A DNA stretch of 51,061 nt. Source: Halobacteriales archaeon QS_5_68_33 (GTDB taxonomy: Archaea > Halobacteriota > Halobacteria > Halobacteriales > Haloarculaceae). Below are positions 793 through 3,702 of this stretch, one piece after another. The notes beneath the pieces were generated by a model, which was not told the origin of the DNA, did no database searches, and saw only the letters and a list, made by a program, of their open reading frames with translations. The DNA lies in contig PXRS01000069.1 in the NCBI GenBank assembly GCA_003023785.1, positions 1 to 51,061 on the forward strand, read 5' to 3'. Every line of letters begins with the position of its first letter. The first letter of the stretch is position 1. Position numbers and translations under genes: made by a program.

Positions 793-3702
793 TCACCTGC
801 CGTTGCTCTTTCCGTTTCCATTTCCGCCGCCGTTCCCGCGGCCGGGACCGAAGTTCCGCGTGGTGACGACGCCGGGGTCGTCGTTCAGGTTGGACTCCGT
901 ATCGCGGACGCGCCCGCTCCCGAGTCGGAGGTCCGAGCCGACGCCGGCGGCCACGTCGTTCAGGTGCGAGCGCTGGCTCGCCGGGGCGCGACCGCTGCCC
1001 ACGAGCATCACCGCGCCGCCGTCGTCGGCGAAGGAGGCCACCGCGTCGAGTTCGGCGTCGGCGAACCCGAACCGGGGCGTCGTGACGACGAGCGCCTTCG
1101 CCTCGTCGAGTCGGTCGCCCGACGCCGCCGAGGTCAGGTCGTTGACCTGCTCGAAGGCGGCGTCCTGGCCCTCCAGGTACCGCCCGAAGTAGGCGGCGTC
1201 CTCGCTGGAGAGCGCGTAGTCGAGACCGAACTGGCCGTGCCCGCCCTCGATGAGCACCGGCCCCTCGTCTTTGGCGAGTTCGTCGACCAGTCCGGCGACG
1301 AACGCGAAGTTCTCGTAGCCCGACGTGTCCACCGGGTATCCCTCCGCGGCCTCGTAGTCCTCGCTGATGAGGGGTGCGCCGAGGTACGCGACGTTGGCGC
1401 TCTTGTCCACTGCGGCCAGCGGGACGTCGCCCCGATAGGTCGTGTCGGCGCCCTCCTGTTCGGCGCTCGATTCGGCGAAGGCACGGACGTGGCCGGGCGG
1501 AACCCGTCTTCCGTCCCGGACGATGCTCGCCGGATCCGGGGCGAATATCTCGGCGACGGGGCGGTCGCGGATCGGCGGCGAGTCGTCGGGGTTGCTCGCG
1601 GCCCACAGGCCCGTGCCGGCGTCGCGGGCCGCGTCCTCGACGGTCCAGAACTCGTCGTGGCGGCTGAAACTCGACCCGTAAACGCGGGCGTACCCCTGCC
1701 GGACCGCCTCGGTGTTGTAGAGGGTATCCCGCGACCCGTCGCCGGTCGCGTCGTAAGTCAAATACCCCAGGATCCGCCCGAAGTCGTCGTAGACGGCAGA
1801 TTGCGGGTCGAACGAGAGCGTCAGCCGCGCCCCGACGGGGAGTTCGCGGCCGGCGAACTCGGAGGCGCGCTCGCCCCACGCGGCGAGATAGGGGTACTCG
1901 GCGTCGGGCGGCACGGACGTGTCGTCGGCGTCGAGATACGGGAACTCCTCGGTGTTGAGAACGGAGGTCAGGATGTCGAAGTTCTGGCCCTCGTTGTTCT
2001 CGTTGTCTCCGACCTGGTCGTCGTTGTACCGGAAGCCCGCGTCGAGGGCGTCGAGGATGCCGTTGAGCGTGGCCGTGCCGTCGAAATCGCGGAAGTCGGC
2101 GACGCCGTGACAGAGGACGACGCCGCCGTCGTCGACGAACGACCGGAGGGCGCTGCGCTCCTCGTCGGTGAAGGGCGCACCCTCGTCGGGCGTCACGACC
2201 ACGTAGCCGTCGGCGTCGTCGGTACGCTCGGGGACGCTCGTCGTCGCCTCGACGGTGTAGCCGGCGTCCTCGGCCGCGGACTCGAACGTCGAGAAGTTCG
2301 CGAGGCGGTAGTCCTCGAACTGGTCGTGGCCCTCGTCCCAGAGAACAGTACCGGAACCGATCTGCTCGTCCCAGACGTTGAGGAGGAACTCGTCCTCGTT
2401 GCCGGGGCCGGCGAGGTCGGCGCCGTCGCTGACGAGGTTCGCGCCGAACGCGACCACGCCGGCGTCGTCGTCGATGGCCGCCAGCGGGATCGGCTCGCCG
2501 CCGTAGACGTACGCGTCCCCGTCGCCGTCGGCGTCCTCGTTGACGGCGGTGGGTTCGGCCCAGACCGCGACGAGCGACTCGTCGGTCAGCGCCCCCTTCG
2601 ACGGGTCGACGAGGCTGGAGGTCGAGTAGAAGTTCAGTTCGCCCACGTCCCGGACCGAGTCGTCGCCGTCGTCGGACTCGCCCTCCGGCGGCTGGGGCGC
2701 CTCGTCGGCGATGCCCTCCCACTCCTCGGGGCGCTCGGCGTCGGCGTTGGCCGCCGTCTCGGGCGTGTCGATGCCCAGCACCCGGATCGGCCGCTCGGGC
2801 TGGCCCGCCTCGTCGGCGAACGCCACGTCGACGGTGTCGCCGTCGGTCGGCGAGACGACCTCGACCTCGTAGGACTCGGCCGGGTCCAGGTCGAGACCCA
2901 GGCCGTCGCGCTCCGCGAAGAAGGGGAACGCGTCGTTGAACTGGCCGGTCGTGGGGACGAACGCCACGCCGGCGTTGGATTCCTCGTCCTCGACCTGGTC
3001 GTCGTTGAACCGGAAGCCCGCACCCAGCGCCGACGCGAGCGCGTTCAGGTTGTCCGTCTCGTCGAAGTTCCGGAAGTCCGACTGGTCGTGGAGGAACACC
3101 GCGCCGCCGTCGTCGACGAAACCCGCGAGCGCGTCCCGCTCGCTCCCGCTGAACGCGTCGGACGGCGAGGTGACCACCACGCCGTCGGCGTCGCCGAGGT
3201 CGTCTGCGAGGTTCTCGGTGGCCTCGACCGTGTAGCCGTTGTCCTCGGCGTACCGCTCGAAAGAGCCGAAGCGGTCGAGCGCGTAGAACTGGCCGTGGCC
3301 CTCGTCCCAGAGCACAGTACCGGAACCGATCTGCTCGTCCCAGACGTTGAGGAGGAACTCCTCGTTGCCAAAGCGGAAGTCGGCGTCGTCGTTCGCGACC
3401 ATCGCGCCGAACCCGACGACCGACCCGTCGACCCCGACCAGCGGAATCCGCTGGTCGTCGCCGTAGTCGCCAGCGTCGCCGTCGTCGTCGGAGTCGACGT
3501 TCGTCGCGGTGGGTTCGGCCCACACCGCGACCAGCGATTCGTCGGTCAGCGGGTCCCCGGCGGCGTCTAGGAGACTCGACGTCGAGTCGAAGGCCAGGTC
3601 GGCGATCCTGGCCTGTCCCAACGCCCGACGGGTCCCCTGCCCGGCCAGGACGCTCCCGGCGACCGTCGCTGCTGTCGTTCGCAGGAAAGTGCGTCGCTGC
3701 AC
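793..3702 (-). CDS. Tat-exported protein: split staphylococcal-nuclease-like domain with three amidotransferase-like domains
   Basis: GTG at 3702 is preferred because it places a Tat signal (QRRTFLRTTAATVAGSVLAG) at the N-terminus; the product is 969 residues. A class I glutamine-amidotransferase-like (DUF4350-type) domain spans about 35-265. The first part of a thermonuclease/SNase domain follows (about 278-334), with DGDTVDV and IRVLGIDTPET giving the expected Asp, Arg, Asp and Glu active-site positions. A second amidotransferase-like domain (about 350-595), closely similar to the first, comes next. The SNase fold then resumes (about 599-702; YPYLAAWGERASEFA, DDFGRILGYL with the second catalytic Arg, and AGTGLWAAS). 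A third, more diverged amidotransferase-like domain (about 705-945) and a Gly/Asn tail end the protein. Nuclease activity outside the cell is inferred from the intact motifs; the role of the other domains is unknown. Confidence 0.8.
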   Translation of the reverse strand: MQRRTFLRTTAATVAGSVLAGQGTRRALGQARIADLAFDSTSSLLDAAGDPLTDESLVAVWAEPTATNVDSDDDGDAGDYGDDQRIPLVGVDGSVVGFGAMVANDDADFRFGNEEFLLNVWDEQIGSGTVLWDEGHGQFYALDRFGSFERYAEDNGYTVEATENLADDLGDADGVVVTSPSDAFSGSERDALAGFVDDGGAVFLHDQSDFRNFDETDNLNALASALGAGFRFNDDQVEDEESNAGVAFVPTTGQFNDAFPFFAERDGLGLDLDPAESYEVEVVSPTDGDTVDVAFADEAGQPERPIRVLGIDTPETAANADAERPEEWEGIADEAPQPPEGESDDGDDSVRDVGELNFYSTSSLVDPSKGALTDESLVAVWAEPTAVNEDADGDGDAYVYGGEPIPLAAIDDDAGVVAFGANLVSDGADLAGPGNEDEFLLNVWDEQIGSGTVLWDEGHDQFEDYRLANFSTFESAAEDAGYTVEATTSVPERTDDADGYVVVTPDEGAPFTDEERSALRSFVDDGGVVLCHGVADFRDFDGTATLNGILDALDAGFRYNDDQVGDNENNEGQNFDILTSVLNTEEFPYLDADDTSVPPDAEYPYLAAWGERASEFAGRELPVGARLTLSFDPQSAVYDDFGRILGYLTYDATGDGSRDTLYNTEAVRQGYARVYGSSFSRHDEFWTVEDAARDAGTGLWAASNPDDSPPIRDRPVAEIFAPDPASIVRDGRRVPPGHVRAFAESSAEQEGADTTYRGDVPLAAVDKSANVAYLGAPLISEDYEAAEGYPVDTSGYENFAFVAGLVDELAKDEGPVLIEGGHGQFGLDYALSSEDAAYFGRYLEGQDAAFEQVNDLTSAASGDRLDEAKALVVTTPRFGFADAELDAVASFADDGGAVMLVGSGRAPASQRSHLNDVAAGVGSDLRLGSGRVRDTESNLNDDPGVVTTRNFGPGRGNGGGNGNGKSNGR

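Follow-up and report, generated by a model that had tools for sequence, protein, structure and literature searches.

In SN5 of SND1/Tudor-SN (p100), the SNase-type fold is broken by an entire domain of another kind, a Tudor domain, and the metal-binding residues are degenerate (PMC5900569). In haloarchaea, extracellular DNA serves Haloferax volcanii mainly as a source of phosphorus, and the surface SNase HVO_1477 is required for this use (PMC3929857). For GIFT domains, sugar binding is put forward only as a proposal (PMC7226087, citing Beatson and Ponting 2004). The open-licence literature that we searched, under DUF4350 with a nuclease in Halobacteria and under nested homologous domains, contained no description of the protein presented here, no study of a family of exported archaeal nucleases with a GIFT-SNase-GIFT architecture, and no EcnA papers. 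Here we describe a gene from Halobacteriales archaeon QS_5_68_33, located in a stretch of 51,061 nt (the whole of the DNA analyzed, hereafter the window; contig PXRS01000069.1), that encodes an SNase-type domain in two segments separated by a GIFT domain.

Domain order and site of the insertion

The gene occupies positions 793–3,702 of the window on the minus strand, where all the features described below also lie, and extends from a GTG start to a stop codon at 793–795, specifying a protein of 969 residues. Searches using pieces of the protein as queries revealed the order GIFT-[SNase half A-GIFT-SNase half B]-GIFT. The product starts with a Tat-type signal peptide (residues 1–31, positions 3,610–3,702; QRRTFLR..., in full VQRRTFLRTTAATVAG), with a match to Pfam TAT_signal (E = 0.011) that is under the family cut-off and with no lipobox cysteine in the signal sequence. 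This is followed by the N-terminal GIFT/DUF4350 domain (residues 33–272, positions 2,887–3,606), identified with Pfam and modeled by AF2 with a pLDDT mostly above 85, and by SNase half A (residues 273–335, positions 2,698–2,886), which carries the motifs DGDTVDV (D287, D289) and RVLGIDTPE (R307, D312, E315) and is delimited by a profile of the family and by alignment to the staphylococcal nuclease 1kda. The insert (residues 336–602, positions 1,897–2,697) replaces no SNase residue and contains the inserted GIFT domain proper (residues 351–594, positions 1,921–2,652), bounded on both sides by linkers of low predicted confidence. Half B (residues 603–700, positions 1,603–1,896) includes helix alpha1, the motif DDFGRILGYL (R643) and the C-terminal helices, and a C-terminal GIFT domain (residues 712–951, positions 850–1,569), located by Pfam, the piece searches and its identities, closes the protein. 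Neither this third GIFT domain nor the conservation of the insertion in many species was mentioned in the sequence-only reading.

Pfam matched DUF4350/IFT52_GIFT in three stretches of the protein, with scores of 63.3 bits for DUF4350 (cut-off 30.4) and 41.8 bits for IFT52_GIFT (cut-off 27.2); the three non-nuclease domains exceed the cut-offs of DUF4350, IFT52_GIFT and ABC_transp_aux. The same scan recognized SNase (PF00565) with 41.6 bits against a gathering cut-off of 21, at residues 605–701, from profile position 18 onward. The inserted domain had been read from the sequence as amidotransferase-like, an assignment that has to be replaced with DUF4350/GIFT; since the family has no cysteine that is invariant, or nearly so, among 54 members, the domain is not an amidotransferase enzyme. 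The insert was also considered as an intein, which was rejected because the Pfam scan retrieved no intein/Hint family at E ≤ 10. The flanks of the relatives contained no shared neighbor genes informative on function. The same genome contains a second SNase-type protein (G000:C79:1630-2091, L002/L003), uninterrupted and in a frame of 337 aa.

The junction is IADEA/YPYLAAWG, exact to the residue and where the sequence-only reading had placed it (after EEWEGIADEA), and the 267 intervening residues agree with the roughly 260 that it had estimated between the split SNase motifs. Uninterrupted members read DTPE...ERxEEWEGI-ED-xYLxxWG, and split members read DTPE...ERPEEWEGL-A...[GIFT]...YPYLxxWG, with an insertion site that is identical in every split member according to the alignments. 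The family profile aligned to residues 12–147 of 1kda (E = 1.4e-14), and in this alignment the insert falls after the DTPE motif, in the segment that joins E43 to helix alpha1, the SNase Omega loop, which adjoins the active site. Two members without an insert, L042 and L045, have a longer loop that resembles the flanks of the split form (EWEGLGDEPSGRDPDGEYPYLSEWG); this loop may be what was left after an insert was lost, or may represent a precursor state.

Completeness and predicted fold of the nuclease

Homologs without the insert exist, and from 92 such uninterrupted relatives we built the SNase profile of the family. Positions 1–60 of this profile correspond to residues 273–335 of the window protein and positions 59–155 to residues 603–700. 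Because the nuclease is divided in this way with no stretch missing or doubled, it is complete and nothing has been lost. Half A scored 71.6 bits, half B 127.5 bits and the joined halves 200.7 bits, within the range of 176–250 bits of natural uninterrupted members, whereas the insert by itself did not match the profile. An independent nuclease model from NCBIfam, EcnA (NF047969), likewise aligned to the window protein as two separate stretches but to L014, which is uninterrupted, as a single one; the score of the window protein, 76 bits, is under the equivalog cut-off of 180. Each of the 19 full-length split members has the equivalents of D19, D21, R35, D40, T41, E43 and R87, as do essentially all 92 uninterrupted ones (92 of 92 for the six positions other than T41), so that the preservation of the five catalytic positions (D21, R35, D40, E43, and R87), already noticed in the window protein, extends throughout the split form. 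A dead nuclease, with the parts of its OB fold separated and the gene on its way to being lost, is suggested by the interruption itself and by nothing else; the intact catalytic set of the 19 split members, the profile score of the window protein, which shows no decay, and the ORFs, which are long and conserved across many species, make it very improbable, and we rejected it on the integrity of the catalytic set. We consider it highly probable, from sequence and structural model together, that the window gene combines a two-segment architecture with a catalytically competent nuclease, for which activity is predicted.

An AF2 model of residues 28–955, generated with 54 relatives, had a mean pLDDT of 89 and a pTM of 0.64, and this last value makes the packing of the domains uncertain. 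In the numbering of the model, the first three SNase strands (251–260, 263–268, and 277–281) lie in blocks with pLDDT of about 75–94, and helix alpha1 (577–593), strands 599–603 and 617–623 and the C-terminal helices have pLDDT of about 84–97. On either side of the insert, the SNase strands and helices thereby follow one another in the canonical order, mostly with a pLDDT of about 90. The inserted GIFT domain is mostly at 84–97, and the linkers are at about 40–63 overall (39–55 for 301–320 and about 60 for 561–580). The prediction supports a folded state for each SNase half and for the insert. Foldseek matched it to the nuclease domains of SND1, the N-terminal (GIFT) domains of IFT52 and the metallopeptidase IMPa; the alignment to SNase was only partial and did not include a barrel of both halves, presumably owing to its interruption by the gap of 267 residues. 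The active site residues come from both SNase halves, and the order of the elements, their confidence and the co-conservation of the active site lead us to infer a closed barrel formed by the two.

Distribution, nested domains and origin of the insert

Related loci were gathered from named genomes, 148 same-family genomes and two samples spanning the order (about 200 and about 400 genomes), with full genes fetched. A complete core was present in 111 members, of which 92 lack an insert, 17 have one inserted GIFT domain and two have a tandem of two in the same SNase loop (L010:5992-10272, from archaeon A07HR60, and L155:1574-5671). Split forms occur in about 20 species from at least four haloarchaeal families (group codes f1, f3, f6, and f7), including Halovenus carboxidivorans (L008) and Halosimplex aquaticum, in which the gene lies on a complete chromosome (L005), with further incomplete cases in L068 and L077. 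The genome of the window is a draft, 71% complete and metagenome-derived, which could raise the suspicion of an assembly artefact or chimera; however, the occurrence of the same architecture in a complete chromosome and in many independent genomes and species, at 48–78% identity, excludes an assembly error, and we give this explanation practically no credence. Divergent split members were also found in G297 and G298 (L117–L120), several with broken or overlapping frames, and these are possibly decaying copies. Additionally, the genus group of the H. aquaticum match (g72) contains short SNase-GIFT proteins of about 428 aa that lack the N-terminal GIFT domain (L084–L087, about residues 19–417).

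Insertion of GIFT domains is also apparent N-terminal to the nuclease in several relatives (L020:6094-8817, L022, L023, L029, L101, L170:1598-4726(-), and L121). In L020, L022, and L101, from Natrialbaceae, and in L170, the N-terminal region consists of a GIFT half, half, whole, half and half, and the breaks fall at a single point, after a GYxLxATTDL motif. The outermost halves of L170 pair best (349 bits vs. 225–294 for other pairings), as expected if one domain is nested in a second and this in a third, whereas the pairings of halves in L020, L022, and L101 are indistinguishable by score. An AF2 model of L020 had a pLDDT of 57 and a pTM of 0.33 with eight sequences. In their sequence, these relatives read as GIFT self-insertion two levels deep. 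In the core tree, L170 and L121 fall within the group that is sister to the window clade.

The sequence-only reading proposed that the insert copies the N-terminal domain through an internal duplication, and this stands in part. The inserted and N-terminal domains of the window protein are 57% identical over 236 residues, compared with 35–37% against the C-terminal GIFT, and in nearly all split proteins the insert is closer to the N-terminal GIFT (44–74% identity) than to the C-terminal one (29–42%). The insert is, by these comparisons, of the N-terminal type of GIFT domain. It is an old copy, however, with 75–77% identity to the inserts of H. aquaticum and QS_9_67_15 (L004), indicating that the duplication predates those lineages; a recent duplication within the lineage of the window was thus rejected. 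The copy may derive from its own N-domain or may have arrived with an already split gene.

The two copies also appear to have exchanged sequence. A tract of 47 identical nucleotides is shared by the N-domain (positions 3,313–3,360; EFLLNVWDEQIGSGTV) and the inserted domain (positions 2,344–2,391), against an overall nucleotide identity of 0.69 between both. None of 2,000 codon-column shuffles, which leave clustered amino-acid conservation uncontrolled, produced a tract as long. Within the tract, the N-domain is 98% identical to its partner in the insert and about 80% to the orthologous N-domain of L004, and similar tracts between copies occur in L007, L127, and L065. These tracts are likely the result of gene conversion between N-domain and insert.

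The history of the insertion is reconstructed differently by different parts of the protein, and the trees of the core, of SNase alone, of the C-terminal GIFT alone and of the GIFT domains conflict. The tree of the core (SNase plus C-terminal GIFT) needs 3–4 state changes and mildly rejects the split forms as one clade (AU test, p = 0.03), and in the C-terminal GIFT tree the window protein clusters with the uninterrupted L031, L032, L121, and L170; both observations favor several independent insertions at the same site over a single one spread by transfer and recombination. Conversely, the SNase part by itself does not force more than one origin, the insert tree is compatible with one clade (AU test, p = 0.34), and gene conversion distorts these trees; the insert tree likewise does not reject placing the window inserts together with their own N-domains (p = 0.18). 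We regard the case for several insertions as evenly balanced: the sequences may reflect a single insertion that spread through transfer, accompanied by domain shuffling, or at least two insertions at the same site.

Possible function and comparison with known systems

The export signal, the complete active site and the GIFT domains together suggest a secreted nuclease held to a glycan-rich matrix or to the S-layer. As an SNase-type enzyme, the protein would presumably be calcium-dependent and cut extracellular DNA or RNA. It belongs to a widespread haloarchaeal GIFT-SNase-GIFT family in which a minority of lineages have gained an entire N-type GIFT domain within the Omega loop, after strand beta3/DTPE and before helix alpha1. 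Two segments of the chain would together fold into the nuclease, with a GIFT module between them carried on flexible linkers by the mouth of the active site, and the insert would act as one extra binding module beside it. We tentatively propose, with slightly less than even confidence, that glycan binding by the GIFT domains keeps the enzyme in the extracellular matrix or at the S-layer, with the insert adding a module, in the service of scavenging of extracellular DNA (for phosphate) or of matrix remodeling. The use of extracellular DNA is a plausible context, transferred from HVO_1477, an enzyme of different architecture. In the C-terminal parts of certain relatives we observed weak dockerin-like matches (L010, residues 1371–1418; L006, residues 1101–1150) and, in L099, a lamin-tail domain with fn3-like matches (residues 710–822), which would be in keeping with extracellular assembly.

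Engineered domain-insertion switches are a precedent for gating by an inserted domain, and the insert adjoins the active-site loop at a conserved site and mostly retains the GIFT signature motifs and residues. It could then be a regulatory gate, in which a glycan or metal ligand would shift the Omega loop and open or close the active site. We deem this gate unlikely: the linkers are predicted to be flexible, a property better suited to a tether than to close coupling, very similar enzymes exist that lack the insert, and L010 and L155 have two. Still more doubtful is a broader scenario in which the GIFT family repeatedly self-inserts, gene conversion keeps the copies similar and the nuclease insert is a ligand-responsive switch on a complete enzyme. 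The presence of zero, one or two copies at one site, the GIFT within GIFT arrangement of the Natrialbaceae relatives and the recombination among copies could, instead, reflect near-neutral insertion, with GIFT domains and the nuclease loop tolerating copies that are gained and lost without new function. Against this, the inserts have been long retained, their signature residues are conserved in most members and a single site of SNase is used, so that we find near-neutrality rather unlikely, if a stronger contender than the gate.

Whatever the role of the insert, the family constitutes a natural, multi-species domain-insertion experiment, in which the number of extra domains in a single loop by the active site of one enzyme varies from zero to two. 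Its close uninterrupted relatives allow a comparison of folding and function around an insert homologous to its neighbors, a situation in which misfolding through domain swapping would be expected, and the system lets one ask whether inserts turn into switches. It also brings into view a large family of nucleases exported by archaea, whose probable role in brines is the recycling of DNA.

The window protein shares its domains, catalytic motifs and family with uninterrupted GIFT-SNase-GIFT exported nucleases such as L014, from Halostella pelagica, although these, 92 of the 111 members analyzed, have no domain in the Omega loop. With HVO_1477 it has in common being an exported haloarchaeal SNase-type nuclease; HVO_1477, however, is an uninterrupted lipoprotein with a lamin-tail domain and no GIFT domains listed (PMC3929857), whereas the window protein lacks a lipobox cysteine and any Pfam LTD match. 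Its nuclease domain is similar to those of the calcium-activated nuclease EcnA and the thermonuclease NucI, but comes in two stretches. The GIFT domain relates it to IFT52, whose N-terminal domain matches the model, GldG and Wbp1/OST48; unlike in other GIFT proteins, its GIFT domains are fused to and inserted in a nuclease. A parallel is SND1, which is among the best structural matches to the model and in which SN5 likewise holds a complete foreign domain within an SNase-type fold (PMC5900569). The statement of the sequence-only reading that no protein of this form had been described is thus too strong; a description of the form with a self-copy was not found in the open-licence literature that we searched. 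SND1 is eukaryotic, with a Tudor insert and tandem SN repeats, whereas the window protein has a GIFT insert and a single SNase; it is, additionally, exported, with a complete catalytic set and an insert, variable in copy number among members, that copies its own flanking domain. An SNase fold with an inserted domain was therefore already known, and what appears to be new is a self-copy inserted in a catalytically complete nuclease.
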